A stretch of DNA of 64,000 bases, from the NCBI GenBank assembly GCA_027604185.1, contig JADGKB010000076.1, positions 1 to 64,000 of the forward strand, in the 5' to 3' direction. Shown one piece after another: positions 360-63,240 of the stretch. Below the pieces are notes generated by a model. The model saw nothing but the letters and a program-made list of their open reading frames with translations, did no database searches and was not told where the DNA came from. Source of the stretch: Boothiomyces macroporosus. Its lineage: Eukaryota; Chytridiomycota; Chytridiomycetes; Rhizophydiales; Terramycetaceae. A program made the translations under genes and the position numbers. Within the stretch, counting starts at the first letter, position 1. The number at the start of each line of letters is the position of its first letter.

Positions 360-697
360 TCAACAACCATTGTAGTTTTCAGGGTCATCAATAGGATCAA
401 CAAGAGCTGGCCATTCTTCTTCCTTTAATTCTCCTTCTTCCTTTTGAGCAACTGCTAACTCTAATTCCGGTTTTGTTGGTGCTGCAGGTGGAGTGAATGT
501 AGAAGGTAAATCAATTGGCGCTAATTTTTCTGGTTTGTATGCACGAAGTTCTGCAAGGTAAGTGTCGGTTATAATATCAGCTATATATTAAAAATATTGT
601 ACATTTGAGTGCTGGGAAGGTAGAGAATGAGCGCTAATGGTTAGTAATCCTGTACTATTGGTTTCAATGCTTTAAAGGAGCGGATGGATCTCAACAT
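360..697 (-). CDS. ATP14: Mitochondrial ATP synthase subunit h (Atp14-like)
   Basis: Two 22-nt introns (634-655 and 581-602) join three exons into a 97-residue protein. It starts with an arginine- and serine-rich presequence (MLRSIRSFKALKPIRSFS), expected of a mitochondrial matrix import signal. The mature part contains DIITDTYLAELRAYKPEKL, matching the conserved start of fungal F1Fo ATP synthase subunit h, followed by a proline-rich stretch and an acidic tail with EEEWPALVDP. Subunit h sits in the peripheral stalk in fungi. The first intron has a perfect TACTAAC branch box. Neither intron disrupts the frame when removed. The family call rests on the short N-terminal motif, the acidic tail and the size (about 90-120 residues is usual). 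Confidence 0.75.
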
Positions 698-916
698 TTC
701 AAAAGTTTTCTGATGAAGCGAAAAAAATTTGAATTTTGAATTTCCAAATGGGTAACAGCAGTTATGAGTTGATGAATGTACTTGGTCGCGCCATTATTTC
801 AATCGCGGATATGGTAGTTAGTTAGATTACCCTGGCGGATATCGCAGGTTAAATTATCACTTGAATATTGATAAATCATCCTACATGAATTATTCTTAAA
901 AAGACTTTATTAGAAA

Positions 917-1969
917 TTACTCTGCAATGTCTCCCATGAATGCGTTTTCATGGAAGACTCTCCCTTTAATTTCTCTCTTTTCTCCACCAACATAAACGTC
1001 AACAGTGACATCTTCCAACCTACAATTAGTCACGAGTACCATTGATAGACAAATGGGGCGGTAATAAAAGTCTGGATAAACTTTCTAACCAAGTATGGTA
1101 ATTCACTAAGTACATCTACCTTGTCAATCATACCTTTCAACGACAAGTTCATGACTACTTTCAAATCCTTTCCATCCAAAGTCTTCCCTGACCATTCGTG
1201 GGTAAGAGAGGTGGGAATTTGATAGTTACTAAACTTGTCAAATTCAGTATGATGGAAAACAGTCTTGTTTTCAGTAGTGATACCAACAATTTTGGAATCC
1301 AAGACAACAAATCCTTGAGAGATTTGCTTCTTTTCGCTTCCTTTAAACATGCTGGCTTGGTACAATACAACAGCATCAGTTTCATTTTGTAAATTGGCAA
1401 AGTTCCATCTTGCTACGTTTTGAGGCAAGTGTTGAGTGACAAAATTGATACAGCCGTGTCCTTTTAAATCAATAGTCTTTCCATCTACTTTCAAAGTGCC
1501 AGTTGCGATTGCTTTAGGGATGTGTGCAGACTTGACGTATCCCTTGTCTTCAGACTTTCCAAACAAGTGCTTTCCAGAGCCGATTCTGACTGTTCCCAAA
1601 GAAACCACTTGGAAATTCATTACGATATCACCATCATCAAAGCTAACTTGATAAGTATGTTGTTTGGCTATGTTAACCAAAAGTACCTTCAATATACTTT
1701 ACGGACATTGGCTTGCAGTCAGCGCTTAGCTTATCTGAAGACATTTTAAAGTCGCTTGCTCCCTTTGATTCGGTTTTAGTTTTCTTGTATCCGTTTGGAC
1801 CATGAATTCTGCAAGCGATTTGAATAGAGTGAGACCAGGAGTTCATTGACGAGTAAATCATTTGAATAAGGATATAGTATCCAGAATCAGTAGTCAAATA
1901 AAATGTTGGTCCATCAGCGGCAGAAGGCACACTGTTGCTAAACTCCAAGTCTTTTAGTTCTGCATCCAT
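917..1969 (-). CDS. SVF1: Svf1-like survival factor, lipocalin-type
   Basis: The 337-residue protein is built from three exons with introns at 1668-1686 (19 nt) and 1020-1039 (20 nt). It matches the Svf1 family over its length: an N-terminal block with GPTFYLTTDSGYYILIQMIY, the central HLPQNVARWNF and NLQNETDAVVLYQ regions, and a C-terminal EWSGKTLDGKDLKVVMN block. Yeast Svf1 is linked to oxidative stress survival and ceramide transport. Unspliced, the frame meets a TGA at 1031-1033; removing the 20-nt intron restores FVYQWLEDVTVDVYVGG, so it is an intron boundary and not readthrough. The start codon lies only 11 bp from the start of the divergent gene at 1981. Confidence 0.85.
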
Positions 1970-2727: not shown

Positions 2728-4117
2728 AATGCGTTTTTTATTGTATTGTTCTTTGAAATCTCGCACTTTGGTTCATGAAAAATTTAAAGTTGGGATTATC
2801 GCCTACAATTTGTGTGAGTACTATATAGGGAGGATAGGATACCATAGATTTTATTGGGTCCAAGCGTTTGTTAATAGCGTTTATATGAGTGGTAGTAGTA
2901 ATGTCTAGACTATTCGTATTTGGTTCCAAGTACAAATAGTCCAAACATTACTGCTATCTATTCTGAACTACTTTCGCGATAAGTGACTATTCTATGTCTG
3001 CAGAATCACTATGCGAGCTGTCAATAGAGGTTTGAGCATTGTTGTGAATTCAAAGACTGTGCAAGCATAGGTGTATAACTATCACTAACGAGAAAAATTA
3101 CCATCTACTTTGCGAACCAAAGTTTTTGTTTGACATTCGATGCCAATTACAAACTCCTCTGACCAATGCGAAAGTGACCCGCTATAGGTTGGAAGAATTC
3201 ACTAACTGCTGTTGCGAATATATCTATCATAACTAATACAACTATCCACCACTATTTGCCTCCAGATAAAGTTTAGTTTGATTTTCAAGAAAAGTTACGA
3301 AAAATTCCTTATCATCAGGAACATCATTCATTTTGACAATGACAAGCAAACAATAGCAGTTGCATGTGATATTAGCTAATTGTAATATGTAAGCACAGAA
3401 CCTAATTCTTGCTGTAAAAATGCAACAATCAACACGAATATGAAATATCTCCTTGGGCTGAATGTAAATCAATCAATTCGATAAACCACTTGCAGAGTAC
3501 ACGGTGGTGGATATTAATATCAGCATTGGGATTGCAGACTGATGCGAAAGAGAATAATCTGTAATTAACACTTAAAGTCAACAATACGCTCTTCAGAAAA
3601 TATTACAGGATGAGTGGTTTTTCCAAATAGCACAAATGATAATCTCGTAGCCTTTAGAATCTAATTATTTGTCTTAAGAATCTAATTATTTGCCTTTAGA
3701 ATCTAATTATTTGCCTTTAGAATCTAATTATTTGTCTTAAGAATCTAATTACTATTAATTTATTTGCTGCAAGTGGTTTACCTGCTCAATTGATACAAGA
3801 AACTACGCTTTCCTGGTTATCGTGTCCTTCCGTGTTTTAGACAGTCAAATCAATTGTTTCATTCAAAACAAAGATAAGAATAGCTTTTATAGATGAGAAA
3901 TAGCCATTTTCTAGAGTTGTGAATTATTTACTTTACTTCCAACATAGAGGTGTCTGACGTCATAAATTTACCCATTCAGTTGATTTGAAACAGTAAAATT
4001 ATCTAAATCACCTCAAAAAGCAGATTTTTGTTAATTATAGATTTTATTACGCAAATACTGTATTTTGAAGTTGGTAAAAATTAGTTTACTTAATGCACTA
4101 GGGAAAAAAAGAAACAT
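2728..4117. other. Long intergenic region with a tandem repeat
   Basis: I find no convincing gene in these 1.39 kb. Short frames (for example 3242-3472 minus) lack recognisable motifs and cannot be extended with the usual 19-24 nt introns. It contains the 21-bp tandem repeat at 3651-3751 and ends at tRNA-Leu(AAG). It is the longest non-coding stretch in a very compact window. Confidence 0.5.
3651..3751. repeat. 21-bp tandem repeat, 4.8 copies
   Basis: Five near-identical units follow each other at 3651, 3672, 3693, 3714 and 3735, each ending in the shared core GAATCTAATTATTTG (the last is cut short). Two unit types differ at the start (CCTTTA or TCTTAA) and alternate in the order A-B-A-A-B. 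This is a minisatellite in non-coding sequence. Confidence 0.95.
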
Positions 4118-4199
4118 GGGCGGATGGCCGAGCGGTCTAAGGCGTCACGTTAAGGCCGTGATCTCTTCGGAGGCGTGGGTTCGAATCCCACTTCGCTCA
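4118..4199 (+). tRNA. tRNA-Leu(AAG)
   Basis: A full class II cloverleaf can be folded: acceptor GGGCGGA with TTCGCTC, D stem GCC/GGC, anticodon stem TCACG/CGTGA with loop TTAAGGC (anticodon AAG), variable arm TCTCTTCGGAG and T arm GTGGG/CCCAC. It is 82 nt with no intron. A T run follows at 4203-4208. The acceptor, D arm and T arm are the same as in the tRNA-Leu(CAA) genes at 1-48 and 8210-8291, so the three come from one family. Confidence 0.95.
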
Positions 4200-4383
4200 T
4201 ACTTTTTTCCCATTTCATCTTGTTGCATTATGAAATTTCGATATGGTTTGTGATTAAAATATTGTGGAATGTCTTGCGTAATTAGTTCCCCTGCTGAATG
4301 AATCACACTCACATGCAAATACGGGAGCTATCACTTGAGCAAGAACCTCATTGAATATTTCGCGAGTGACTTTTTTACCGAAA

Positions 4384-5546: not shown

Positions 5547-7733
5547 TTATTCTTCATCTTCAAGTTCAAGAGGTTCTTCTTCTGTTTGAACTCTGTTGAG
5601 AATTGGATAAACCTAGAATTAACACAATATTTACATGAGTTTGGAAGTATGGTGCTTTAGTGGCTGGTTTGTATGCAGCGGTAATGGTATTGAAGTAGGC
5701 TTCGTACATGTTGCCATCATATCTTCCGAGTGGTGAGTTAATAACAAAGTCTGAAAAGTTGAAAGAGTCAGTAATTGGGATTGCTTCCTTTCTAACTGCT
5801 CTGCAAAGTTCAGAAACCTTTGCCTTGACCCAGTCAAGTTGCTTTGGTGAAAAGTATTCATATTGAAGGAACGGACCGCTCAATTCAGAAATATTGTATA
5901 AACCATACAATTGACAGAGAGTGACCAAGATAGGTTTCAAGTTGGCTGGTGCCTTTGAAACACCGTCCTTAAATCTATGGTACAAATAACCGAAACTGTG
6001 AATCTTTGCAGCGAATAGTCTGGCTTGAGCTAAAGATTAATTAATAATTTACAGCATTCTTCATAAGCTTCTTCTTCCTTTAATCCCTTCTTCAAGCATG
6101 CTTGGAAATCTTCCCCAGCCTTCTTGACAACATTGGCAGCAACTACCCAATAGGCGGTTCCAATAATATCCAAGTCCAAAATTTCTTCACTAGTCTTGGC
6201 CGGGCATTTGGCAGTCAACAAAGTGGACAAAGAATTCAAATAAGCAACGCCTCCGTGTTGTTTGATTCCGTTCAATGATTCGCGATAGCATCCAATAAGG
6301 TATCTTCCGGCTTGCAAAGTAAGAATGGTGTTATCTCCTTCCCAAGTACATTGTACAGCAAAGTCATTGTATAATGAGGCTAGCCCAGCATATGCTGAAT
6401 AACCATGACCACCTAAAGCTTGTCTACATTGGTCAATAGTGTTGAGTGCATTCCAAGTACAGAATGCCTTGATACCAGCACTGGTACCGTGCAACTCCTT
6501 CAGACTGTTCAAAACATCATTAATTTCCTTGTCTCCTGGTCTGAGTCTATCCATTCTTTCCATCAATGATTCAAACATGGAAGATACTTCAATTCCGGTA
6601 AAGTGCATTGCAAATGCTTGTGCAAGCAAAGGCATCAATCTGTGTTGATGAATAACATAATCCAACAACTTGGTTTCTGGTTGGCCTGGTTTAGCTCCAA
6701 ATTGTCTTCTGATAGCAGCATATCTGATGGCAATGGTCAAAGCTTTCTTGGCGATATTTCCAGAATCAGTGACCATTGTTACACGACCGTTGATTAAAGC
6801 ACCAAAGGCTAATTGAGCAAGCGGAGGTTCAACTACAGTTCCATTTGCCAGTACTTTTGAGTGTTTCATCAACATGTGCGATCTTGGAATCCTGACATGG
6901 GTAAATTGAATCCATCCATTATCAATACCGTGTCTACCCATTTTTGGACCGCAATCGCCAATAACAACACCAGGCATCAAATCAAATGTTTTGGTGTCGC
7001 GAATCTGGACCACAAATGTTTTTACACCATAGCATTTTCCTTTAACATACAATTGAGCGTAGACAGCCGAGTGGGTACAAGTTTGAGCAGCACCACCAAT
7101 CCACCATTTGGTAGCTAGGATTAGAAATATTTTACCTGTAAGAGTAGGGGTGTGGATAATAAATTCTTGAGATGCTTCATCGTAAGTTGCGGTTGTTTCT
7201 AACCCAGCAACATTAGATCCATGTCCTAATTCAGTCATAGCGAAACATCCGATAACACCATTTAGGGTTACTGCACCCTTTTGCACCCAGTAGGATAATT
7301 GTTCGGGGGTAGCTTGCCCTTGAACAGAGTTTAAAAATAGACCCAAATGCACACCAATTCTAGTCCAAGAGGCAGGATCAAATAATGTCAATACATTCAT
7401 TCTCTTTTTAAATGCGTGCACGCTTTCGGCAGTTAAATAGTATCCCATTTTAGCAATCTAGGGTTATTGATAAAATACTTTCTCCATGGTTCTTCTACGA
7501 ATGGTAGCCAAATCTTGCTCATGAGTATCGATGGTCTTGAAGGTAGGATCTCTTTCAAATTCCATCATGATTTTTTCGAGCAACTACAGTTAGTATGCCA
7601 TTACCAAAGTATTTTGTTCTCCACCATCTAGAAAGTGGGTCATTTCCCGTATTGGGAATCCAGGGTTTTTACGTTCTTCAGCGATACTAGCAGTTGGGGA
7701 TGGTCTAAATTTAGTTCCTTCTTACGTTGCCAT
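5547..7733 (-). CDS. ACOX: Acyl-CoA oxidase (peroxisomal beta-oxidation)
   Basis: Six introns (7705-7725, 7584-7604, 7458-7478, 7115-7135, 6030-6052, 5613-5634; 21-23 nt) yield 685 residues, the usual ACOX length. Visible family motifs are CFAMTELGHGSNVAGLETTA, the TATKWWIGGAA block, a DCGPKMGRHGIDNGWIQF segment and QALGGHGYSAYAG near the flavin site. The enzyme oxidises fatty acyl-CoA to trans-2-enoyl-CoA and makes H2O2, the first step of peroxisomal beta-oxidation. The C terminus is acidic (EPLELEDEE) and has no SKL-type PTS1, so import would need PTS2 or piggybacking. The fourth intron is 21 nt with no stop and reads through as GKIFLIL; comparison with the family shows it must be removed. 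Confidence 0.93.
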
Positions 7734-8209
7734 TTTTCAGTTTCAAGAAATTTTCAAAATATTTTATATTCCACTTCATGGATATTCACGTGATAGTTCC
7801 TCTTGGATTTAAGGCCGCAATGTATCACATGTTGGAGACCGCCAGAACGATTTGAATAACCTTTGCCTCTAATTGGGTCTGGCTTTTTCGCACTTGAACT
7901 GGCTAATATATTATAATTATTCTACCGAGGACGGGTGTGAATGCATCGTCAATTTTTTAAAATTTGTTTGGTTTCAAACTATGAATCATGTTTAGCAACA
8001 GTTTTCAACTCTTCTCCAGGTCATGGGAATGCCAACGGTGCGCCCGAAAGATTTTGATGGTGTTCCATCAATGTAATTTGCATGGCACGCTAAAATCTAC
8101 TAGGGCCAATTTATGAAAAGCATAAACACGAATTCAAAAAACATGTCCTTCACAAATGGACGACAAATTCAAATTGAGCCAGATTCCAAATGAATCAGCT
8201 ACAAAAAAA
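7734..8209. other. Intergenic between ACOX and tRNA-Leu
   Basis: The first 45 bp upstream of the ACOX ATG hold a GAAAATTTCTTGAAACTGAA promoter-like stretch. In the rest I find no frame with a recognisable product and no RNA gene that I can fold with confidence. Confidence 0.4.
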
Positions 8210-8291
8210 TGAGCGAAGTGGGATTCGAACCCACGCCTCTTACGAGATTCGAACTTGAGTCGAACGCCTTAGACCGCTCGGCCATCCGCCC
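8210..8291 (-). tRNA. tRNA-Leu(CAA)
   Basis: On the minus strand the acceptor GGGCGGA pairs with TTCGCTC, the D stem is GCC/GGC, the anticodon stem TTCGA/TCGAA closes the loop CTCAAGT (anticodon CAA), the variable arm is TCTCGTAAGAG and the T arm GTGGG/CCCAC. It is 82 nt and has no intron, although tRNA-Leu(CAA) genes carry introns in many eukaryotes. A T7 tract follows. The 48 bases at the window start are a second identical copy in the opposite orientation. Confidence 0.96.
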
Positions 8292-8599
8292 ATGTTCGTG
8301 TTATATGCTATTGTGCTAAGTCACCTGACCCAACCTTATGTTATGCACCTTGGTTCAGTATATAAGAACCTCTCTTAAAAGCTTGCGGCATTGTATTATT
8401 ATCAATAAACGCGCATAACTGTATTCGCTATGACAAATCCACTTTTTGGACACATTATTTTGAAATATCTAATCCTGAACCAATTGGTTCATAGTTTTAC
8501 AGACAACCCAACATTTGAACTTGCTATTACTCAGGATATTAATTTTAGAATTATCGCAAGCAAAGAGTGAGAAAATACGCGTACATTTTCCCAACAAAC
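8292..8599. other. Upstream region of the DUF1003 gene
   Basis: I see no gene in these 308 bp. A GTG codon at 8567 opens the downstream frame earlier, but the first ATG is at 8600. No convincing upstream exon was found. Confidence 0.4.
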
Positions 8600-10633: not shown

Positions 10634-11538
10634 ATGCTGAATTTAGTCCCAGCAATTAGAAATGTAAGTATCAATTAATATCAGGGGATTAGGAGTTTCT
10701 CTGGTTCAGCAATAAGATTGCAGCCAATTGTCAGAAGAAGAAAGCCAAAGCTCCCATATATTGCAACAAATATCACTCCTCAAACTGCACAAGAGGCCGT
10801 AGATAATATTCTATACAATGGGCCTCCAAAAGATACTACTCCATCCACTAGGCATACTCTGAATTGTTTGGTTGCGAATGAACCTGGTGTGTTGTCTCGA
10901 GTCTCTGGAATTTTAGCTGGAAGAGGAATCAACATTGAATCGCTTGTTGTTGCCAGAACTGAAGTCAGCGATTTATCACGAATGACCATCGTAATTAATG
11001 GGCAGGATGAACGAATTGATCAAGCAAGGAAACAATTGGAAGATATTGTCCCTGTTTGGGCAGTTTTGGACTACACTAATATTCGCTCCGTTCAAAGGGA
11101 AATGATTCTGATCAAAGTTGCTACTGTTCCACATGAATTTGAGACTGAAGACTCTATTCAAACTGATGAAGTATTCCCTCACTAATAATAGCATCACCAT
11201 CCAAATGGATTTTCTTCCTTGCTGAACGCCTCTCTACAAAGACAGGCAATTACCGAATTAGCAAAGCTCTTTAACGCCATCGTTGTGGATGTATCTCTGG
11301 ATTCAGTAGTCTTGGAACTGTAATTACTTGCTTATTTAGAACGGCAAAACCATCGCGCATTGATGCATTCGTCGAATTGCTCAAACCATATGGAGTTTTG
11401 GAAGCTGCAAGATCTGGTAATTTTATTCTAATGTCAGGAACTATGGCCATGCCAAGAAGTCACATTGAGGGAATTCAAGATAATATCGTCGAGGAAGAAG
11501 CCGCTGTTGTCGATGCTACCCTTTTGCCTCCTGGATAA
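10634..11538 (+). CDS. ILV6: Acetolactate synthase regulatory subunit
   Basis: Four introns (10664-10684, 11171-11191, 11320-11339, 11417-11437; 20-21 nt) give 273 residues. After a mitochondrial presequence (MLNLVPAIRNGIRSFSGSA) comes an ACT domain with NEPGVLSRVSGILAGRGINI and ESLVVARTEVSDLSRMTIV, then the ALS_ss C-terminal domain with AKLFNAIVVDVSLDSVV and LLKPYGVLEAARSGTMAM. It binds the catalytic Ilv2 subunit in mitochondria and confers valine feedback inhibition in the valine/isoleucine/leucine pathway. ILV5, the next enzyme of the pathway, lies 527 bp downstream on the same strand. The last intron is 21 nt without a stop and could be mistaken for coding. Confidence 0.95.
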
Positions 11539-12065: not shown

Positions 12066-13272
12066 ATGTCAACCAGAAGATTCTCATCACTCGCCAGACA
12101 AGTTGCCACTGCTTGCAGAAGATCCGCACCAAGAGCATTCTCTGCCAAGCCTGTATTTCAAGTAAGATTGATTATTTAATCCTAGAATACTCAAGTAAGA
12201 GGAGTCAAGACCCTCAAATTCGCTGATACTACTGAAATTGTATATGAAAGAAGCGATTACCCAAAAGAAAAGCTCGCAAAGATCTTTGCCAAAGATGTAT
12301 TCGCTGTTATCGGCTACGGTACTCAGGGAATGGCCCAATCCTTGAACATGAAGGACAATGGTCTCAAGGTTGTTATCGGTGTACGTAAAAATGGTGCTTC
12401 TTGGAAAGATGCCATTAAAGATGGCTGGGTTCCAGGAGAAACTCTCTTCTCTATCGAAGAAGCTTGTGAAAAGGGTACCGTTGTAATGAATTTGCTCTCA
12501 GATGCTGGCCAAAAAGATGCTTGGCCAACAATCAAACCATACTTGAAGAAGGGCAAGACTCTTTACTTCTCACATGGATTCGGTGTTATTTTCAGTGATC
12601 AAACCGGAATTATTCCTCCAAAAGATATTGATGTTATTCTTGCCGCTCCAAAGGGCTCTGGACAGACTGTCCGCTCTCTGTTCTTGGAAGGAAGAGGTAT
12701 CAACTCCTCAATCGCTGTATATCAAGATGTCTCTGGCGAAGCTAAAGAAAGAGCTATCGCCTTGGGTGTTGCAATCGGATCCGGATACTTGTATGAAACC
12801 ACATTGTAAGCTAATTCCTAACTCTAGTAAAAAGGAAGTATTGTCTGATTTGACTGGTGAACGTGGTGTGTTGATGGGTGGTATCCAAGGTATGTTCAAG
12901 GCACAATACGATGTCTTGCGTGCCAAAGGTCACTCTCCATCGGAAGCATTCAATGAAACCGTTGAAGAAGCAACCCAATCTCTTTACCCATTGATTGCAA
13001 AGAACGGTATGGATTGGATGTATGCTGTCTGTTCTACAACTGCTCGTCGTGGTGCTATTGACTGGGCTCCAGAATTCTATACTGCTACCAAGCCAGTGTT
13101 TGAGCGTTTGTATGAATCTGTAGAAAATGGAACCGAAACTAGAAGAACTTTGACTGAAAACGCACGTCCAGATTACCGTCAAAGACTTGAAGCTGAACTA
13201 AAAGAAATTGCAGACCAAGAAATGTGGAGAGCTGGTAAAACCGTTCGTTCATTGCGTCCCGAAAATCAATAA
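12066..13272 (+). CDS. ILV5: Ketol-acid reductoisomerase
   Basis: Two introns (12162-12185, 24 nt; 12806-12827, 22 nt) give 386 residues. The second restores GYLYETTFKKEVLSDLTGER exactly as in the family. The protein has a mitochondrial presequence (MSTRRFSSLARQVATA), the NADPH-binding FAVIGYGTQGMAQSLNM, then PKGSGQTVRSLF and the Mg-binding DLTGERGVLMGGIQGMF block and SLYPLIAKNGMDWMYAVCST. It converts acetolactate or acetohydroxybutyrate to the dihydroxy acids in mitochondria. In yeast Ilv5 also packages mtDNA; nothing here tests that. Together with ILV6 it shows a prototrophic branched-chain amino acid pathway. Confidence 0.97.
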
Positions 13273-13470: not shown

Positions 13471-16796
<3,326 letters not shown>

Positions 16797-21421: not shown

Positions 21422-22028
<607 letters not shown>

Positions 22029-45961: not shown

Positions 45962-45963
45962 AT

Positions 45964-51495: not shown

Positions 51496-52285
51496 AATAT
51501 AAATCTTACCACATTATATTTGACTCGATTTCAGTTGAATTTTAGCAATGATCATATCATTAATATTTAAATTTTTCAGGATGCAACAATTGGATCAGCA
51601 GTAAAATCATTCAGTCTTATGTTGCTGTACCAGATTGATAAAGTCTACCAAACCATGATTCCTTCAATATCCGCTTTCACTTTATGAATTACTGGTGGAT
51701 ATGACTGGCTGCAACCATCAATTTAGTGATAAGTCTCTGTTTTCCAATTCCTCTCTAATCTGGCGAAATTGTGGGCATTTGAAATGCCGTATTTCGCCAT
51801 TAAACGAACGTCGATACCCATGCATTACTAGGTGATAATACACCCTAGCAATTCTGCACATTGAGTTATACGAATCGCAAGAAATACACATAAAGTGCTT
51901 TGATTTCCACTCCCAGACCCATACGCCGTTCTATTTTGTGTTACGCTTTGATCAGTTGAATCAACTTCAGTCGCCCAGCTCTTGTGACTTTCCGGTGCCT
52001 GTGAGAAAGAATAAGACTGGCTTGACACTGGTTAGTTCAACTGAAAAAACGCCATAGGACGAATTGAACGGTCTTATCTAAGGCTCAGCCATTCATTTTG
52101 TAATAATTCAGTGAGTTTGTGAAACAACAGGATATTAAAAATTTTTACAACCTGCCATATTGGTCGATTCTGGCCAAACTTGGTCCCAATCCGCAGGTTT
52201 TCCATGCGACACACCATGCGATGTGAAGAAAAATCCCGATCACACACATATATAAGGCAACAGGGTGTTTTGTGAAACTAGCGGA
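51496..52285. other. Intergenic, 790 bp, no supported gene
   Basis: A plus-strand stretch near 51730-51830 reads DKSLFSNSSLIWRNCGHLKC, a pattern reminiscent of an F-box end, but it has no ATG and no exon partners. The minus-strand 66-codon frame at 51828-52028 is low complexity. I call neither. Confidence 0.35.
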
Positions 52286-53940
52286 ATGTACCAGTTATTT
52301 AACGACTGGTGGCTTCTAAACTGCCAATATAAACAACGATTAGTAATTGAAAATGATTCCCCTTGTAAATTAATTTGTGATTACCTAAAATTCAACACAG
52401 AGATTACAGACCTCCAGCTGAATGACATTGAAGACGAACAACACTTTGCTGCATTCATAGAGCTGTTGAATTTTAACAAAACCATCTCCATTCTTACCTT
52501 AGAAGGTCGGCCTTATCTAACATAGACATTCTAGATGTGGATCAAATGCTTCTTCAAATTGACTGGGAAAATAGTTGTATAACCCAATTATTGCTCCATT
52601 TCTGTACCATCAAAGAAAACTTTCAATCTCTATGTCAAATGTGGGCTAAAAGTAGGCTGAAAAAGCTCTTTGTTGTAGGATGCTCAATCGACGATGAATT
52701 TGTCAAAGAATTGCAGCCGCTCTTGAACAGCCAACTTGTAGAGCTAGTCATACCATCAAACAACATAACTTCAAAAGGCTTGGAAATTATTTCAAAGAGC
52801 ATCAAAGAAAACCAAAATTTCGATTCATTAAACATCAGTAATAATCATATAGAAAAAGGTTGGAGGCTTTTCAACAGCTTGTCAAATATAACAGACCTTA
52901 AAATTGGAAACTTGAAAATCGACCAGGAATTCAGCTACTTTTTGGATTCGTTAAAATCATCTCAAGTAAAGGAACTTTCAATATATCAAACTCAATTCAC
53001 GACTCTACAGTTTCAATCACTTGCAAATGTTGTTGTATCGCTACCGCTACACAAAGTTTGCTTTGATGATTGTGATTTGGGACCAGCATATGCGAGTATG
53101 ATTGCTGACATGTGTCAAAATACTATTGCGGAGCTGGATATATCTAGAAACAATATGGGTGATGAAGGAACCAAAATCATTACAAAAAGACTATGTAAAA
53201 CGAACTTTGTCAGTTTGGATTTGTCAGATAACCAAGTGGGGATAGAAGGTATGAAATCAATTGCAGAGTTGCTAATCTATAATCGGCTGGAAAGACTCGT
53301 CCTGAATTCGAATAATATTTGCCAGGATTCTGCTGTACAGCTAATCAAAGGCTTAAAGATGAACACTTCATTGTTAGAATTGCATCTAGAGAACTGCACT
53401 TACCAATCGAACAGCTCCAAAGTTATTCTGCAAAGTTTGGAATCTCATCTTTACTTGGCCAGTCTGTTTATTTACCAAGAGGAATGCAGAACCATTCCCT
53501 TTGATCAAGTTGCAAATATGCTACAAAGTAACAAGAGCTTGCGGTATATTTCATGTGCTTTTGGTGAATCAAATCTTTTGGTCAACAACTTTTATTTGAA
53601 TTGGATTGGGGAAGCTTCTATTGAATACGATGAGGTATCTAGGAGATATGCGAATGAATTCTTGTACAGCAAGCCAATTACAACGAGAAATATCCGGTTA
53701 CAAAATGCAAGGACTGCAGAATTACTTTTGACGTGTAGAAGCATTGGGCTACTAGGGTTACCTAACGAGTTGCACCGCCAAGTTCTTGTTCTGCTGATAC
53801 ATTACGCCCTGATTCCTTTCCGTGACGTATCATTTGTTTGCAAAGCTCTAATGAACTTGGAAAACCTAGGTATTCGCAGTGACAGTAAATTTAGCCAAAT
53901 CCGATTCCTAGATATTTTAACCAATAAATCACACCAGTAG
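52286..53940 (+). CDS. RNI-type LRR protein with lineage C-terminal domain (copy 1)
   Basis: One 20-nt intron (52506-52525, unusual donor GTCGG) gives 544 residues. The N-terminal 60 residues (DYLKFNTEITDLQLNDIEDE) are shared with the paralogs. Ribonuclease-inhibitor-like LRRs fill the middle, such as IAELDISRNNMGDEGTKIIT, FVSLDLSDNQVGIEGMKSIA and LERLVLNSNNICQDSAVQLI. The last 170 residues form a common domain: YLNWIGEAS, YDEVSRRYANEF, PITTRNIRLQNARTAELLL, RSIGLLGLPNEL and an ending helix pair. No signal peptide or membrane segment is seen; it is probably a cytosolic scaffold or sensor. Tandem with copy 2. Confidence 0.85.
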
Positions 53941-54004
53941 CCTCCTAATTATTTTTGGCAGTCAAGTCTGCATAATTTTTTTGACAAAAATTCTTTTTCA
54001 AAAA

Positions 54005-55797
54005 ATGAAAAAATTACTTTGGACTGCGGAGGAGAGGGAGAATGTCCAGGAAATCCTGGCGAATGAAACTTGGATCCAAATATCTGGCCAGGACGATTCA
54101 GACTTTCTCTTGGAGTCGCTACTTTCCAATACTACGATATCAGAAATAGTATTTCTAGATATTTTCACAATGGACATTGATCAAATTACAGAGCTCTTGT
54201 CTACCAATAAATGTCTCAAATCTGTAGAATTCGTGGATTGCGAGTATTTGGATGAATTATTTTACGACCTGGACTGGGAATCGCTTTCAATTACCGATCT
54301 CTTGCTGGACCGAAGTTACGTTGATGAAAATTTCAAAGTGATTAGCAAATGTAAGTCACTAAAGAATCTTGTCATCAAAGGATCGTTTGTTCCATTTGCA
54401 GACCTAAAGTACGTGATTGCCAATTCGCAAATTGAATCATTGTCAATAGAGGCAAATGAGATGCCATTAAAGTTGCTCAAAGAAATTACAGATGAAATAT
54501 TGGTGTGTAATCGTATAGTGTCCCTCAACATTTCAGAAACTTGTAATTCCGTGGGTGTAATTGAATCAATTGGGAAGCTTTTATCTTCAAGGTAAACAAT
54601 TCTGACTCTAGGATCCAGAAGCTAAAAGCTGGGCCATTCCGTTTAGAGTCAAAAGCTGGAAAGAACTCTAATGCAAACCTTGTAAAGTTAGCAAAGAAAT
54701 TCAAGAAATCAAAGCTGAAATCTCTATCATTATACGGTGTGCCTCTAACAGATCAGTTTTTCCTGAATATTGGTCCAGGATTTGATCAACTTTCGAAATT
54801 GCGACTGGATAGTTGCGAGATTAACGATGTAACAGTTCCCTATTTGGCAGAGTTTGTTTGTAAAACAATTGTTGAGCTGGACTTTTCCCGCAACAAGATT
54901 GGAAATCACGGGTTGGAAATATTGACGAACGCAATGATCTCTAATGAACATTTTCACACTCTGGATATAACTGAAAATGAATTTGACGAAGATGGATTCA
55001 TACATATTACTAGATTATTGTCTGAAAGCAAGCTCAGAAGGCTGATACTAGATGGTAATCATATTTCCAAAAAAGCAATGGAATTCCTGGCAAAGGGAAT
55101 GAGGAAGAACAAGAGCATGTATTCGCTGTATTTGGAAGGATGTGACTATAAAATTGACGATCTGCAAGTATTATTTGAATCTCTGTATGATCACAAGTAC
55201 TTGTTTGGAGTGTACATGAACAAAGATGTTCGGGATTATCCAGAAGCTGAAAGGGCAGCTGAGCTGTCAAAATTAACACAACAAATCGGAAAACTGCTCA
55301 AGAATAACAAAAATATTAGACAGCTGGGATGTAACTTGCAGCGTATAGTTGAACTTGTTCACATTGATGATCAACTTAGAATGGTGGAAATGGAGCCTGA
55401 AGACGAAATGCAGAATATACTCTCTTGCATACAAGACAACTATTCAGTAACTTGGATTGGTGAACCGAATGAGTATTTCTATGATGACAAGAAGCGGTAC
55501 AGCGACTTGGGAGAATACAGAGGGTTTGTTCCCATAACGAATCGAAACTCGATCCTGCAAACAAAAAGAGCAAAAGAGTTTTTCCTGTCAGCAAGAAAGT
55601 ACCTCTTGCTTGACTTACCAGGCGATTTAATCTACTACATGCTCAATCGCTCTTTCCTGTGGGCTCTAATTCATCCCAGATACCAGAAGGACATTGTAAA
55701 ATGTTTAATGAACAAGGAGAATGTTGGAAAAGTGTTATCCAATGCCAGATTTTCACCCGCGGTATTACACGAGGTGTGCTGTGAATTAAATAAATGA
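54005..55797 (+). CDS. RNI-type LRR protein with lineage C-terminal domain (copy 2)
   Basis: One 20-nt intron (54592-54611) gives 590 residues. The N terminus (MKKLLWTAEERENVQEIL, LLSNTTISEIVFLDIFTMDI) is followed by LRRs such as TIVELDFSRNKIGNHGLEIL and LRRLILDGNHISKKAMEFLA. The C-terminal domain has VTWIGEPNEYFYDDKKRYSD, GFVPITNRNSILQTKRAKEF, YLLLDLPGDLIYYML and ARFSPAVLHEVCCEL. The ATG at 54005 follows TTTTTCAAAAA, as at other genes here. Tandem with copy 1 (64 bp between) and related to copy 3 on the other strand at 61581-63240. Confidence 0.85.
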
Positions 55798-56099: not shown

Positions 56100-56921
56100 A
56101 TGAATCGAATTCTCAAATCAGTTAAATTAATCAACCGCACAGCCAAATTCAATCCTCCAAAGCGATTCTATTCCCAAACGCAGCAGAAGCCAAAAGGACC
56201 AAATATTTCGGATCAGGACTTGGGAGTAATTCTATATTAATCAAGAAAATGTCCCTTAGGAGTGCCAAGTGGTTCCTTGGTGCAGGCCTGTTGTTATTGG
56301 GCACATTCTATGGAGTGAAGTACAACTTGAAAGCTAAAAGGGAGAGCGAGCGAAAAGATGACCATCATGGCAAGCCGTTAGTTGGTGGACCGTTTTCCTT
56401 GGTCGACCATACAGGAAAGCCAGTTACCGATTTGGATTTCAGAGGAAAATACATGCTCATCTATTTCGGATACACTGTAAATAGGTTTTAAAATAGTTTT
56501 GTCCAGATATCTGTCCCGAAGAGTTGGATAAAATGGCAGACATTGTGAATGGATTAGAAAAAAAGAAGCAGATAACAGAGGATACAGTAGTACCGATATT
56601 TGTATCATGCGATCCTAAGCGCGACTCTGTAGAGTCTATTGCTGAATATGTAAAGGAATTCCATCCCAAATTCATTGGACTGACAGGTAAATGTGTACTT
56701 GATTAGGTACCTTTAAACAAATCAAGGCTATGGCCAAAGCTTACCGGCTGTACTTTTCCGCCCCACCAAGAGCTGTGGATGATGATGAGACAGACTATCT
56801 GGTTGACCATTCAATCTTTTTCTACTTGATGGGGCCAAATGGTGAGTATATTGCCCACTATGGAAGAAACGACACTGCAGAACAAGTTAGAGACAAAATC
56901 ATTGAACACATAAACAAATAA
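56100..56921 (+). CDS. SCO1: SCO1/2, cytochrome c oxidase copper chaperone
   Basis: Three 20-nt introns (56226-56245, 56477-56496, 56687-56706) give 253 residues. There is a mitochondrial presequence (MNRILKSVKLINRTAKF), one membrane helix (about 52-72, KWFLGAGLLLLGTFYGVKYN), and the thioredoxin-like domain with the copper-binding CPDIC (in FCPDICPEELDKM, made by the second splice), PIFVSCDPKRDS and the third copper ligand His in YLVDHSIFFYLMGP. The protein delivers copper to the CuA site of Cox2 in the inner membrane. Confidence 0.96.
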
Positions 56922-57099: not shown

Positions 57100-59064
57100 T
57101 TAAAAAGGAAGTGGAAGCTCTTTAGTGACTCTAAACTGTCCCACATTGTTGGAATGTTCATTTTCCATTCGCAAGACGGCCCAGAAGCTTCGCCGGAACA
57201 CCTCCAATATTGCACAAATATATACAATAAGCGGAGTCAGAGAAAACGAGTTCCAGTAGTATGGAGCAAGTAGAATTGCCCATGTAAATCTCAAAGGAAA
57301 ATCTAAAACTATTCCTAGGTAGTATATCCATTGAGGAAATGCCAATTCGTTTCTGAGCCATCCTTGTCGCAAGAGACCCCTACAATTAAATCATTTTACC
57401 AATCAAATAGAATATCCCAGCAATAAGCCATAACAGATGCCAACACAGAGACGCAAACCCACGCGATTTGATAGCTAGAGTTTTCCGTAAATTTGCTAAC
57501 TAAAGAAAGTATTATAGTTGAAATTGATAAGATGTACTTGAATCCATTTACCAAGTGAGGATGGGCGTTCTTTGTGTCATGGTATCTTCTCAAGCACTGT
57601 ACCAATCTAAAATATGCTGGGAGGCATGTAATAATTGAGGCTGCAGGTGATTGATTCAACTGGCAAACAGAATTGATATCTTGATAAGGAAAAGTGAATG
57701 CGAGGCATACCACAGATTCTAGGGAGATGAAAGAGTATGTGAGCGAAACCAGCAAATCACTAACAAAAAAGTCCCTGAAATGTACGGGTCTGAGGCCACT
57801 TGAGAGTATGCGTCCCTATAATTAGATCTAGTATACAAATAAGCATATTATCCATTTTCTTCTTCCAAAATTCAACACTTTGAATGGCAAGAAGAGCACA
57901 ATCAATCCCGCTCCAACAAGAGTGATAGGATAAATTTGTGAGGGAATGTTGAAAGAGTTTGCTTGTGCCAAGTAAAAAGATATAGTATAACCAAAAAGCA
58001 GGATCGAAGCCAACTTGGTAAATTCAATTGGTGTCATGGCAGCTAAATTAGCAAAGATTACCCTTTGGATCCAATTCAAAGATTAGAATCCAATTGATTT
58101 TCTTGATTTGAAATACCAATAGACATAATCCAAACAAGTACAGAAACAGAATTGGGATAGAAAGCCCAGCGTATATAAAAGCTGTAAAGGAATATTTCAT
58201 AGTAGATACTATATACGCGAGAATTGGAACTGATAGGCCCGTGAGCAACCCAGATATGTATATGTCTACTGGTTGAAGCGTGAATTCTCTCGGTTTGAGT
58301 ATCTCTGTTGCTTTTCGTCTGTCTGGTTCGAAATACTGCACATACAAGTTCAAGGTTTGCTCAATCAAATCTTTGATTTCGTCTTTTCGGAGTACATTGA
58401 AGGCTTGCTCCTTTAGCTCTTGGGTATTTAAATTCCGTCGCTTTGAAAACTTTTTTAGAATTTTTTGGGCTGCCATTTCATTTAGCACTCTGTAGTTTGA
58501 CAGCAATTCAAGAAACCTGTAAAATTCACAAATTGCCAGGTGGATTTTTTTGGCCACTTTTTTAGCACTTGAATTGTATCTGGCAGTAGGAGGTTTGTTT
58601 TCCGGTACTTCTATTATCTGATCTCCTGTTAGAGTTTGTGCCGAATTTTCTCTTGGTTTCAACTCTATGATTCTGTTTCGATCCATCGGGCAGAATAATT
58701 CGTTTGTTTCGAAATTTGATTCTCCATCGATTTCAGTATTTTCACATCCTTCTACCTCCTTTGCAGTCTTTGCCATTTCCATACAGGAGCCTGCAATGTT
58801 TCGGAATCTTTCTATCGCACCGGAAACCTTTTCCTGGAGGAACTGCTCAACTTTATGTACCTCTTGGTGAAATTTGACTATGAACAAGTTGTCTTTGAGG
58901 GTAGTACGGTCGACAAGACATGTCCAATCGTCGTGGTCATCGACAATTTGAGGAATACACGTAATCTCCATGAACTTTATGTCATTTTTGAGCTGGTTGT
59001 AGTTGATATACTTGTGTTTCCACTCTGGAACAACATTTTGGGTCAGATATTCGCCAAACTTCAT
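57100..59064 (-). CDS. SPX-EXS phosphate exporter, XPR1/SYG1-like (copy 1)
   Basis: Three introns (58043-58061, 19 nt; 57816-57836, 21 nt; 57380-57399, 20 nt) give 634 residues. The SPX domain spans about residues 1-215: MKFGEYLTQNVVPEWKHKYI at the N terminus, the FYRFLELLSNYRVLNEMAAQ helix and the basic KILKKFSKRRN that binds inositol pyrophosphates. Membrane segments and the EXS domain follow (GRILSSGLRPVHFRDFFVSD, LPAYFRLVQCLRRYHDTKNA, FRRSFWAVLRMENEH). XPR1 exports phosphate across the plasma or Golgi membrane under control of inositol pyrophosphates. It is a tandem duplicate of the gene at 59457-61444. Confidence 0.94.
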
Positions 59065-59456
59065 GTTGAAAGCTTATTTGTCAAGAACAAGCAGACGCCC
59101 CGTCAGATCTTATGAATAGCCACGCGGATACGAGATACCAGTCAGTATTAGTCTATATCACGGAAGCTGGATACTGAAAGTACTTGATCATTTATCGCTA
59201 GTTCACATTCTAACAACGTTTGGTAAATCCACCCACTAGTTGATCAAAGATGAACGCAAGTTTATTTAAATAGATCAGAGGCAAGGATTTACCGGAAATC
59301 AAGCAAATTGGGTTAGAGAAAAGGTCTTTTCGTCATTTCTGGAATCCTTCCAATGGAACCAACACGTTTTTCAAATTCAAAAACGTTTTGCTCACGACCA
59401 CCTGATCGCGCCAAAAACACGAGATGCACAAATGAAAGGAGTAAATATGAAGTTTA
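59065..59456. other. Intergenic between tandem SPX-EXS genes
   Basis: No gene is visible in these 392 bp, which must hold the promoter of the gene at 57100-59064 and the 3' end of the next one. Confidence 0.4.
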
Positions 59457-61444
59457 TTACAAAAATGGAAGTGGCAACTCTTTTGTAACTCTGAACTGCC
59501 CGACATTGTTGGAATGTTCGTTTTCCATCCGCAGGACAGCCCAGAAGCTCCTTCTAAAGATTTCCAGTATCGCAAATAGATATACTAGAAAAGGACTTAG
59601 TGAAAAAGAGTTCCAATAGTTGGGAGCAAGGAGAATCGCCCAAGTAAATCGAAGGGGAAGATTCAGCACAATTCCAGTATAGTATACCCAAGGAGGGAAT
59701 ACGATTTCTTTTCGGAGCCAACCAACCTGAAATAGTCCCCTATCATTAGAAATAGCATACCAATCAAAGAATATATCCCAACAATACGACATTATTGATG
59801 CCATAAATGAAAAGAAAACCCATGCTATTTGATAAGACGATCCACCATAGAATTTACTCACCAACGATAACACAATGGCCGAGAGAGATAGTATGTACTT
59901 GAAACTGTTTGTGAGGTGGGGGTGAGCTTGCTTTGAATCATAGTAACGCCTAAAGCACTGGACTAAGCGGCAATAAGCAGGAAAACAAGTTACAATAGAA
60001 GCTGCTAGAGATTTGTTTAACTGACAAATATTATCTGCTTCGATATTTGGGTAATTGATAGCCAAACAAAATACAGATTCGATAGCAGTGAAAGAATAGG
60101 TTAAAGACACCAACAAGTCACAGACAAAGAAATCTCTAAATTGTACATGATTGTATCCACTAGTCAAAATACGAACCTGTAATTAATAATAAATACAATT
60201 AATTCCATTATCCACTTTCTTCCAGAGTAGTTGAATATTTTAAAAGGTACAGTTAATACTAGAATCCCCAACGTAACAAGAGATATTGGGTATATCTGAT
60301 CTGGAACTTGAAAATAATTTTCCACTGCTAAATAGAATGACACGCTGAAAAAGAATAACATGATCGAAGCAACCTGAGTAAATTCAATTGGAGTCAAATA
60401 GTTTCTTGGGTCTAATTCGAATATCAATATCCAATTGATTTTCTTGTTTTGAAATATCAACAAGCAGCAACTGAACAAATACAGGAAAAAGATTGGGATT
60501 GACAAACCAGAATAGATGAAGACTATGAATGTAAATTTAACTTTGAATACTACATACAACAATATTGGAATAGAGAGGCCAGTGAATAACCCGGAGGTGT
60601 AAATTGTCCATGGTTGTACTTTGTGGTCGCGTAGTTTCAAAGTTTCCAATGCTTTCTTGCGATCCTTTTCAAAGTATTGCATGTATATCGCTACTGTTTT
60701 ATCTTGCAATTCTTTGATTTCAGTGTTCTGCAGGCAATCAAACGCAGCCTTTTGCAGTTTGCTTGTATTGAAATGAAGCCTCTTTGTTACTTTTTTGAGA
60801 ATCTTGTGAGATGCGATTTCATTCAAAACTCTATAGTTTGACAACAGTTCCAAGAATCTATAGTATTCTAGAATTGCCTTTTTTAGCAGCGATTGGGCTT
60901 TCTTTAATTTCGAGTTTACAGAAGGCAGAGCTAAACGTTTGTCCAAGTCCGCAGATATCTTTTTCTTCAAGACCATATGTCTATCAACAGGGACAACCAG
61001 TCTATCATTGCTTTCACCGACCTCTTCTGAAATTGGGCGAAGTTGAACAATTCTGGGACTTTGACTACTTTGGTTATCATCTTGATATCCATCCTCAGAA
61101 ACCCCCAGATCACTTTCGTTGTCAGTTTCATCCTCCTGTCCAGCATATTGCTCCAAAGCCAGCGTTGATTCCTGAATCTTTTCAAACCGCTCCTTGGCTT
61201 CTTCTGTCTTGTCCTTTAAAAATAATCGAACTTTATCAACTTGATGATGATACTTGGAAATGAAATTCGAGTCTTTTGGTTTGGGACTGTCAACCAACGA
61301 GAGCCAGTCGTCAGCAACTTCTTCAACAATAACGACATCAGAATTTTCAATCAGCTTGATTTCTTTCTTTAGTTTGCTGTAGTTTATGTATTTATTTTTC
61401 CACTCTGGCACAGCATGCTGTATTAAATATTTTCCAAATTTCAT
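59457..61444 (-). CDS. SPX-EXS phosphate exporter, XPR1/SYG1-like (copy 2)
   Basis: Two introns (60177-60196, 20 nt; 59740-59760, 21 nt) give 648 residues. The SPX part has MKFGKYLIQHAVPEWKNKYI, YYRFLELLSNYRVLNEIASH and KILKKVTKRLH; the EXS part has VRILTSGYNHVQFRDFFVCD, FPAYCRLVQCFRRYYDSKQA and the same C-terminal MENEHSNNVGQFRVTKELPL as copy 1. An acidic loop (about residues 105-130) replaces the shorter one in copy 1. The 59740 intron has no stop and is a multiple of three, so it is easily translated by mistake; copy 1 shows it must be spliced. It lacks the intron that copy 1 has after FELDP. Confidence 0.94.
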
Positions 61445-61580
61445 TTAGCGTTTGGATGAGTTGAAATTTTTTGTTGAAAAAGCACCACCAAATCGGCCAT
61501 CGCAGACTGACTTGAATATAGATCTTCTGGCTCGCTTCGAGGATGCGGATTCGGAGAACCTGATCTCGTAAAACTATTCT

Positions 61581-63240
61581 TTATTGATTGTATAATATTT
61601 GCACGAGGTCGCTGAAAGCCTGAGGTGAGAAGCGGACCTTGGATTTAATTTTTCCGATATATTTCCTATCAATCATGATGGTTGTCATGATAAACCTATC
61701 CTGTGGCAGTATAGCGTATGTGAATAGATGTTGAAAAATCAAGAATTGTAAATCGTAGGAAGTATCAAGGAGTATTAGGGCTCTACAAGCGGATATGAAT
61801 TCTCGCAACCTGCTTGCTTGTAATACAAGATTTCTTTGTGTATAAGGAACAAAAGCTCTGAATTCATTCAAGTCAGAATATCTGTGATAGTCGTCATAGT
61901 ATTGGGCATTTGGTTTACCAATCCACGTCAAGTTGAAATTCTTTTCCATTTTGGATACAAGAAAGTCAAAACTACTATTACCATATATCTGTGGACAACC
62001 TATTTGCCGTAAGCTTTTGTTCTTTTCCAATAGTTCACCTAGATATTGTATGTAATCCCAATTGGGCATCCTTGTAAAGTAGAACCCACACAGGTATGAA
62101 TGGTGATACAGCGATTGGAACAAGACTGGGATTGATTCAACAGGAAAATGACAGCCTTCGACACATAAAGAGTACAAACTCTTATTTTTCTCCAAGCCTG
62201 CTGCAAGATACTTTACCGATTCTAAATTGAATCGAAATCCATCCAAAATTAGAGCGCGAATGGAGCTCTTTTCCAGTATAAACTTGATTTGGGCCATCCC
62301 TTCGACCCCTATTGGATTATTAGTTATATCCAAACTATGAAATTTATAATTCTTAACGATTGCATTTGCTAGGATTTCCATTCCTACGGCAGTGATTTCG
62401 TTCCTTGACAAATCCAGAAACTGCACACCATTTTCAAGGAGGTGTGCCAGAGTGGATGCATTCTGATCGCCAATACTACATGAATCTAGACGAAGGAAAT
62501 TCAAGTTTTCCAATTTGCCTGCTATCCGTTCAAGCAGGTTACTCAAATCAACTCCATACAAAGACAATTCCAATGGTTTACAATGATCAAACAGCCTAAT
62601 AAACACTTCTTCATCATCAATTTCACAGGGCCCAAATTCAAATTTCGTCAAGTTCAGGCGTTTAAGCATTTCTTCATACAAAACAAAATCGGGACTGGAA
62701 TCAGCATCCTTTAGGGATAGTTCGGCCAATGGCGGATGGAAGGAATCTATTATATCCGAAACATCAAACATGATTGTAAATATGTTTTCCAAACGCAAAG
62801 ATTCCAAATCCAGACTTTCAATGATAGGATTTAGCACTGAAGGAGCAATTGAGCATCCCCGCAATGTCAGTTTGGTGATTTTGGATTGCGCAATAGCCAG
62901 CATTCTTTCCGATATATTGCATGATTCCAATGTCAGCGATTTGGGATGAAACTCTATCCAGTTAATGTTGTCGGCAACGTGATCAAATATGTTTGATAGG
63001 AAACAAACCGATTCAATGGTCTGATTTGAAAGAAACATCTCGTCAAGTAAAGCTTACCTCTCCAATCAATCGGGAATCTGCAACGCAGCTTATGTAAAGA
63101 TCCGAGATAGTCTGGTTAGACTTCAACGCTTCAATTAGCAGATCGGCATGGGATGAATCGTCGATATCCAGTCTGGTTTCGCCTTCCAGTATTGATAAAA
63201 TCGACTCTGGATTTTCCAAGCCCAAATTCACAGATTTCAT
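61581..63240 (-). CDS. RNI-type LRR protein with lineage C-terminal domain (copy 3)
   Basis: One 19-nt intron (63039-63057) gives 546 residues. The N-terminal MKSVNLGLENPESILSILEG, then HADLLIEALKSNQTISDLYI, aligns with copies 1 and 2. LRRs follow (NGVQFLDLSRNEITAVGMEI, FHSLDITNNPIGVEGMAQIK, IRALILDGFRFNLESVKYLA). The C-terminal domain has LTWIGKPNAQYYDDYHRYSD, LNEFRAFVPYTQRNLVLQAS and LILLDTSYDLQFLIFQHLF, ending VRFSPQAFSDLVQIL. It is closer to copy 2 than to copy 1. The two tandem exporters and SCO1 lie between copies 2 and 3. Confidence 0.85.

Follow-up and report, generated by a model that had tools for sequence, protein, structure and literature searches.

DNA and homology point to introns of 19–24 nt as in effect the only size class within coding sequence of the chytrid Boothiomyces macroporosus

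Genomes with nothing but ultrashort introns have been described for relic nuclei, extreme parasites and ciliates. The introns are 18–21 nucleotides (nt) long in chlorarachniophyte nucleomorphs and 16–17 nt in mikrocytids (PMC10245619); those of Stentor coeruleus are 15–16 nt in length, with the branch A at nt 10–11 and a tail of 5 nt (PMC9505925), and Paramecium introns have a median of 24–25 nt, with a range of 15–100 nt in P. bursaria (PMC12862383). Here we analyzed 64,000 nt of contig C76 (the window) from the 15.2-Mb assembly (216 contigs) of the chytrid fungus Boothiomyces macroporosus (Chytridiomycota, Rhizophydiales, Terramycetaceae), in which introns of nearly the same size occur in an intron-rich fungus. 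An initial annotation of the window had placed introns of 19, 20, 21, 22, 23 and 24 nt (17, 38, 22, 12, 3 and 1, respectively) and one of 28 nt, naming nucleomorphs and a few ciliates as precedents; these are fitting, and the mikrocytids can be added to them. By the evidence of DNA and homology the introns are real; the extreme itself is known, and the lineage and the setting in which it occurs here are new. We consider it very likely that they are U2-type spliceosomal introns, that 19–24 nt is in effect the sole size class within coding sequence, and that their recognition is by intron definition, the layout being rigid.

The length class was analyzed with our own semi-Markov gene finder, whose codon usage was first trained on long open frames; it detects introns within coding sequence, leaders being outside its scope. 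In the flat-prior run, any GT..AG segment of 12–120 nt was allowed at equal cost per length. For the window alone, 52 of 82 candidate introns were 19–24 nt long (8, 21, 11, 6, 5 and 1 from 19 to 24 nt), whereas any other length occurred zero to two times. After addition of splice-site weights, trained without a length term, the class comprised 74 of 105 candidates (12, 32, 16, 9, 4 and 1), and once a length term was included, 98 of 119 (17, 41, 24, 11, 4 and 1), next to one of 28 nt, one of 14 nt and 19 of 34–111 nt. The 14-nt call and the 34–111-nt calls (18 besides the one in TFIIB) were left uncounted because such lengths are not above decoys; single ones may be real. In total, the window contains 98 introns of 19–24 nt, one of 28 nt and one in TFIIB.

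The same class was observed in a 264-kb sample, made up of the window and one 10-kb piece per contig from C1 to C20. With no length preference, 150 of 328 GT..AG candidates were 19–24 nt, compared to 14–32 for eight decoy dinucleotide pairs (GC-AG, AT-AC, TG-GA, CT-AC, GA-TG, GT-TG, GT-AC and CT-AG) run with the same codon table, which was derived from the window with GT..AG introns removed. In the bins of 25–40, 41–60, 61–100 and 101–200 nt, the GT..AG counts (42, 34, 29 and 58) were below those of all eight decoys (minima 48, 37, 51 and 63). When lengths up to 600 nt were allowed, 145 of 332 GT..AG candidates were 19–24 nt, against 13–22 for five decoys, and the longer GT..AG bins lay within or below the decoy range. 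Three held-out stretches (30 kb, kept out of all training) gave 21 of 35, against 0–5 for five decoys; with the trained splice-site weights this became 34 of 42, all 34 at 19–22 nt. Taken together, the decoy, 600-nt and held-out runs bear out the initial proposal of a nearly sole spliceosomal class in coding sequence. For coding introns in these 264 kb and 30 kb of the 15.2 Mb there is a single narrow length class, the exception being the composite inserts described below.

Predicted genes with a length of 300 nt or more number 152 and comprise 214.6 kb of coding sequence; they carry 296 introns of 19–24 nt, which corresponds to ∼1.4 introns per kb coding, or about two per predicted gene. Extrapolated to the whole assembly, which contains some duplicated segments, the number of such introns would be ∼17,000. 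In Paramecium, introns divisible by three are in deficit. Here, 70 of 300 introns are 21 or 24 nt in length, and 56 of the 70 would bring in an in-frame stop if retained; we make no claim on a deficit, because a frame-based finder overlooks stop-free introns.

Thirty-six junctions were compared with homologues; 26 were clearly supported, two were unsupported, and the other eight were weak, adjacent to a gap or impossible to align. For DRC11, all eight junctions are gapless, each in 27–34 of 34 homologues, and the protein is 94% identical to that of B. macroporosus over 96%. The six-intron model of acyl-CoA oxidase gives a protein 100% identical, over its full length, to that of Boothiomyces sp. 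JEL0838; five of its junctions are gapless in 30–40 of 40 homologues, whereas the N-terminal one (residue 2) is gapless in 1 of 40. The ILV5 protein is 99%, 95% and 82% identical to those of Boothiomyces macroporosus, Terramyces sp. JEL0728 and Globomyces pollinis-pini, respectively. Its second junction is gapless in 40 of 40 homologues and its first in none. The first ILV5 intron may be a 33-mer rather than the 24-mer: exactly the three in-between residues are absent from the three closest homologues, although on visual inspection the donor of the 24-mer is better.

For DJ-1, UBC12, ILV6, SCO1, TFIIB and SMC5, the PDB alignments were compared by eye with the junction table. In DJ-1, the first and third junctions are gapless and a one-residue gap lies beside the second; the true start seems to be upstream within the same exon. 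Both UBC12 junctions are gapless. So are the last two of the four in ILV6, where the first is outside the alignment and the second in an unaligned linker, and the second and third of SCO1, where the first is outside and the second lies beside the CPDxC motif. Three of the seven SMC5 junctions are clear (13826, 13916 and 16393), and removal of the intron at 13916 restores 11 residues; 15542 is gapless in a weak coiled coil, 15913 is near a gap, 16623 is beyond the printed part and 13488 is outside. The single TFIIB junction is supported with a 23-nt intron, which raises the score from 191.9 to 217.7 bits; the 56-nt intron of the length-term model was rejected, as 33 nt of it are coding according to the homologues.

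Some of these introns are spliced out in public gene models, and others are mishandled. For DRC11, stretches that are present in our model and in other homologues are missing from the public models of B. macroporosus (749 aa), Terramyces (785 aa) and Boothiomyces sp. JEL0866 (591 aa); the first two are both without a 35-residue exon located between the 19-nt intron and a 22-nt one. As this case illustrates, the practical effect is that exons are lost from public gene models of these chytrids.

The anatomy was derived from 300 introns of 19–24 nt, out of 441 from a length-free run in which a 3′ weight matrix was used. The donor consensus is exon AAG/GTA (A 91%), followed by A (59%), T (44%) and T (60%); at +5, T is followed by A (22%), G (18%) and C (16%). 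GTANGT was tried as donor signal and rejected: its 56 sites gave no length peak, +5 G being rare in donors here. The introns are 29% G+C, and the spacer from donor to branch motif is moderately U-rich (41% T). The branch motif is YTAAY; its branch A is located at nt 14–16 in most introns (mean 14.7, standard deviation 0.85), 5–6 nt from the intron end including AG (mean 5.6), and YTRAY occurs after nt 7 in 219 of the 300. Because these introns had been picked with the 3′ weight matrix, the layout was determined again on a set selected without any motif. In its single-motif introns, the branch A is at nt 14–16 in 97 of 103 and the tail is 5–6 nt in 85 of 103. In this set, selected with lengths up to 600 nt, 83% of the 19–24-nt candidates have A at +3 and 69% have YTRAY within the last 12 nt, compared to 0–28% with YTRAY in the bins above 24 nt. 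The initial annotation had put the branch site a few nt before AG, with no room for a polypyrimidine tract, and the tail of 5–6 nt agrees with this.

The U1, U2 and U6 small nuclear RNAs (snRNAs) contain the normal pairing stretches, and the branch motif is complementary to U2. U6 has ACAGAGA; U2 is encoded by two diverged genes (L026 and L027; 142 and 135 bits), both with GUAGUA; U1 is ACUUACCUG, with the 5′ start AUACUUACCUG. All six protein factors sought by their own profiles were found (Slu7, Prp18, SF1, U2AF65, Yju2 and Cwc25). Slu7 and Prp18 match above the cut-off, and SF1 has its helix-hairpin, KH domain and zinc knuckle. Spliced U2AF65 aligns to RRM1-RRM2 of the solved U2AF65 (212 bits) and to its C-terminal domain. 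A further alignment is with the U2AF59 chain of 4yh8, a short segment that presumably contacts the small subunit. Cwc25, named from its Cir_N domain and a motif, carries the glycine plug MGGGDLNLKKSWHP in L036 and L037, the model start being upstream of its methionine. In the length-term models, Slu7, Prp18, SF1 and U2AF65 themselves have 19–24-nt introns and Yju2 has none; Cwc25 has one of 21 nt and another called at 17 nt. The initial annotation had suggested a check for changes in snRNAs and branch-point factors; none was seen in the parts tested.

The two Cwc25 loci are on different contigs (L036 on C49, L037 on C100) and have identical gene models. Kinase matches are likewise repeated within C10 and within C65. 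These repeats are either recent duplications or uncollapsed haplotypes.

Like the chlorarachniophyte nucleomorphs, the genome studied here has many introns in a narrow range at nearly the same value; different from the nucleomorph, which is the relic nucleus of an endosymbiont with a reduced genome, it is that of a flagellated fungus with 15.2 Mb. With Stentor it shares two fixed distances, the 5-nt tail, normal U1/U2 pairing stretches and AU-richness. However, the lariat loop would be ∼15 nt here and is 10 nt in Stentor, and introns occur in 18% of Stentor genes, compared to about two per predicted gene here. According to the available part of the Stentor report, Slu7 and Prp18 were not found and Cwc25 is without the glycine plug, and an altered active site was proposed (PMC9505925); Slu7, Prp18 and the plug are all present here, and in these features the spliceosome differs from the Stentor type. 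Mikrocytid introns are also numerous and uniform, but mikrocytids are parasites with 17–19 spliceosomal proteins identified, whereas no reduction was seen here in the parts tested. Paramecium has tiny introns as a rule and an intron-rich genome, with a wider length range. Microsporidia, relatives of the fungi, also have short introns, but few per genome and a reduced spliceosome (PMC10245619). With 296 introns in 152 genes and six of six factors found, the system here is not of the reduced mikrocytid or microsporidian type.

The fungus is a free-living saprobe available from culture collections; it is a chytrid rich in introns, and it has retained DRC11, a flagellar gene. Among the literature matches listed, in which subscription journals are little covered, no report of ultrashort introns in chytrids was found. 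The available part of a study of 644 fungal genomes has two chytrids in its reconstruction and names no ultrashort class (PMC8476143). Both fit the initial remark that such introns are not known from ordinary fungi.

Based on these data, we propose that the introns would be recognized by intron definition, through the 5′ sequence G-U-A-A-N-U, a branch A at nt 14–16 and a distance of 5–6 nt to the final G. Because the layout is so rigid and short, U1 and U2 would be bound nearly edge to edge, and a lariat loop of ∼15 nt would result. Just one or two bases separate the branch motif from NAG; therefore, the branch site probably sets the AG, via its distance from the branch point. Since no downstream tract is possible, U2AF65 probably acts via SF1/U2AF35 contacts, or on the moderately U-rich spacer that precedes the branch motif. 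In the cell, splicing would then proceed in this manner by an otherwise ordinary spliceosome. The splicing parts found look ordinary, and tiny introns may therefore not need a stripped-down splicing machine. If RNA confirms the introns, a changed active site is unnecessary at least down to 19 nt, and the role of the tract-binding domains of U2AF65 in the absence of a tract becomes testable.

The initial annotation stated that no intron is longer, unless the 46-nt gap of NUP50 is a single one. No longer bin rises above the decoys, but some longer inserts do exist, and they look like chains of ∼20-nt units: thirteen candidates longer than 24 nt have good signals at their two ends, and in 12 of them such units can be seen by eye. 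In MCM7 (L012 89–131, plus strand), removal of 43 nt is needed for gapless alignment to MCM7 structures; the insert is 21 + 22 nt meeting at AG/GT, and the score of each unit falls short of the lower quartile (2.5). A METTL2-like gene (L010 8632–8688, minus strand) contains 57 nt that can be divided into 19 + 19 + 19, all abutting. With the three units removed, the protein reads HNAWDNVEF, which we take to be the METTL2/METTL8 motif; the PDB alignment begins downstream. Both inserts are lost as wholes in the models, with their units abutting. The 46-nt gap of the NUP50-like gene (window 23809–23854, minus strand) is read by the model, unproven, as 21 + GGA + 22 nt, and L051 6371–6412 (minus strand) as 20 + CAA + 19 nt. 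L019 9063–9155 (plus strand) can be read as 20, 21, 21 and 22 nt with ATG between; the model takes three of the four units.

Under a stricter score, three zero-gap and two three-base-gap pairs were found in the 264 kb, against 0.08–0.46 per spacing. A single array accounts for two of these zero-gap pairs, and the remaining one is a doubtful helicase-like pair in L019. With a looser score, a further 85 kb gave one doubtful zero-gap pair and two three-base-gap pairs against 0.29, with one and two at spacings 4 and 5. Two of the five looser-score zero-gap pairs (four from the 264 kb, one from the further 85 kb) look like chance and were rejected: in the L019 helicase-like pair the second unit reads as exon, and in the L003 pair the first unit lies within kinase coding sequence. 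These numbers are small and insufficient alone for a claim. Perhaps the longer inserts are chains of ∼20-nt units removed stepwise; one intron of 43–57 nt fits equally well. In fungal stwintrons, according to the available text, complex inserts are cleared by consecutive splicing (PMC7138796). The inserts are complex in both cases, but they are nested in stwintrons, whereas here the 19–22-nt units directly follow one another, and their consecutive removal is unproven. A speculative extension, to which we give little weight, would be a spliceosome with a hard upper and lower size limit. Longer inserts would then survive only as head-to-tail chains of 19–22-nt units, each splicing rebuilding the next 5′ site (AG/GT), and new introns would arise by tandem duplication of whole units. 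The arrays cited for it are those in MCM7, the METTL2-like gene, NUP50 and the L019 gene (3-nt spacing). Of the leads in this study, the composite inserts are at once the most novel and the least proven.

Could the introns be real and yet be accompanied by a longer class that is hidden from a codon-based finder, be it in non-coding leaders or in genes of poor conservation? Our finder is confined to introns inside coding sequence, and the 52-nt candidate in L013, the possible 33-mer of ILV5, the 28-mer of PIG-V, the 43 nt lost from MCM7 and the 57 nt in all from the METTL2-like gene would suit such a class. We regard it as unlikely, as no bin above 24 nt ever exceeds the decoy range, the branch motif is mostly absent there, and nearly all good-signal longer candidates hold one or more ∼20-nt units. 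That the segments are not introns at all, but internal eliminated DNA, translational bypass or many frameshift errors of the assembly, is extremely improbable, even though DNA alone was examined. GT/AG ends and a U2-complementary branch motif stand at fixed distances, the frames of conserved genes are intact only once the segments are removed, and spliceosome parts are present. A consensus is not expected from assembly errors, and DNA elimination is not known from this lineage. It is conceivable, if somewhat doubtful, that the feature is ordinary for the order, that is, shared by Rhizophydiales at large and known to annotators. The public model of Boothiomyces sp. JEL0838 splices six introns exactly, and the omission of the same DRC11 exon in Terramyces would fit the same tiny introns there; on the other side, the literature matches listed hold no report of it. 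The intron lengths measured are all from the present assembly.

U2-type introns of in effect one size within coding sequence thus remain our preferred explanation: the GT..AG ends fit the coding frame beyond chance, and ends, branch motif and snRNAs are of U2 type. Several points weigh against it. Its basis is DNA and homology, and the same ab initio errors may be present in the public gene models. Both unsupported junctions are the first of their genes (ILV5 and acyl-CoA oxidase), and the 52-nt candidate (L013 2644–2695) has signals at both ends and does not split into short units. Although U1 carries the matching C, +5 is G in only 18% of the introns; U1 pairing at this position is therefore weak. 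The U1 match (68.8 bits) is 0.7 under the Rfam cut-off of 69.5, and U2AF65, exon by exon and unspliced, reaches 230.7 bits, under the family cut-off of 310.3. U2AF35 was not identified by its zinc-finger motif and the general zf-CCCH profile, but it may be split by introns. The motif as DNA pattern gave no match at up to one mismatch; among 17 zf-CCCH places, ten small stretches were inspected, of which none was clearly U2AF35 and one had no CCCH by pattern. The machinery check covers U1, U2, U6 and the named proteins.

Table 1. Introns placed in the window, by gene or region (lengths in nt in brackets)
Gene or region	Span	Strand	Introns	Basis
Predicted gene	271–697	−	348–367 (20), 581–602 (22), 634–655 (22)	gene finder
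Predicted gene	917–1969	−	1020–1039 (20), 1668–1686 (19)	gene finder
Acyl-CoA oxidase	5547–7733	−	5613–5634 (22), 6030–6052 (23), 7115–7135 (21), 7458–7478 (21), 7584–7604 (21), 7705–7725 (21)	
ILV6 (acetolactate synthase small subunit)	10634–11538	+	10664–10684 (21), 11171–11191 (21), 11320–11339 (20), 11417–11437 (21)	
ILV5	12066–13272	+	12162–12185 (24; or 33 from 12153), 12806–12827 (22)	
SMC5	13471–16796	+	13488–13508 (21), 13826–13845 (20), 13916–13935 (20), 15542–15563 (22), 15913–15932 (20), 16393–16412 (20), 16623–16642 (20)	
Predicted gene	16816–18941	−	18164–18186 (23), 18328–18348 (21), 18493–18512 (20), 18654–18673 (20), 18815–18834 (20), 18907–18927 (21)	gene finder
Three predicted genes	19135–21815	+	19135–19153 (19), 19994–20014 (21), 21797–21815 (19)	gene finder
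NUP50-like (name from the initial annotation)	22057–24010	−	23915–23935 (21), 23834–23854 (21), 23809–23830 (22)	gene finder
Predicted gene	24076–24627	−	24560–24580 (21)	gene finder
TFIIB (outside the 98)		−	25596–25618 (23)	gene finder and homology
UBC12	26526–27093	−	26651–26670 (20), 26890–26909 (20)	PDB alignment
Predicted gene	27170–29940	+	27998–28016 (19), 28080–28098 (19), 28152–28171 (20), 28360–28381 (22), 29097–29116 (20), 29535–29555 (21), 29788–29806 (19)	gene finder
DRC11 (flagellar)	29969–32572	−	30071–30092 (22), 30840–30861 (22), 30967–30985 (19), 31329–31348 (20), 31898–31918 (21), 32152–32171 (20), 32322–32342 (21), 32436–32455 (20)	
PIG-V-like (name from the initial annotation)	32679–33398	+	32959–32979 (21), 33077–33104 (28), 33189–33208 (20)	gene finder
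Gene	34595–35241	−	34595–34613 (19), 34846–34864 (19), 34986–35005 (20), 35221–35241 (21); 108- and 40-nt calls doubtful	gene finder
DJ-1	35704–36278	+	35746–35765 (20), 35865–35883 (19), 36017–36036 (20)	PDB alignment
Two zf-CCCH genes	36335–38316	−	36705–36723 (19), 36834–36853 (20), 36918–36937 (20), 37620–37639 (20)	
Predicted gene	38396–40935	−	39289–39309 (21), 39547–39566 (20), 40257–40277 (21)	gene finder
Region	44052–46828	+	44052–44072 (21), 44710–44728 (19), 45066–45084 (19), 45301–45319 (19), 45813–45831 (19)	gene finder
Region	44052–46828	−	46016–46035 (20), 46809–46828 (20)	gene finder
Region	47499–50675	−	47499–47521 (23), 49128–49147 (20), 49347–49367 (21), 49603–49622 (20), 49760–49779 (20), 49988–50007 (20), 50349–50368 (20), 50657–50675 (19)	gene finder
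Region	51307–54611	+	51307–51326 (20), 51411–51432 (22), 52506–52525 (20), 54592–54611 (20)	gene finder
SCO1	56100–56921	+	56226–56245 (20), 56477–56496 (20), 56687–56706 (20)	PDB alignment
Region	57380–63986	−	57380–57399 (20), 57816–57836 (21), 58043–58061 (19), 60177–60196 (20), 63964–63986 (23; at window edge)	gene finder
Region	57380–63986	+	59567–59588 (22)	gene finder

Some neighboring genes of the window (Table 1) are related to each other. The two adjacent zf-CCCH genes form a related pair and, by appearance, also contain a RING finger. At 57100–61444 (minus strand), two adjoining related genes resemble SPX-EXS phosphate exporters, and three related genes at 52286–55797 (plus strand) and 61581–63240 (minus strand) look leucine-rich-repeat-like, again by appearance. 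The window also contains genes for tRNA-Leu(AAG) at 4117–4200 (plus strand), tRNA-Leu(CAA) at 8209–8292 (minus strand) and tRNA-Ser(CGA) at 26241–26325 (plus strand).

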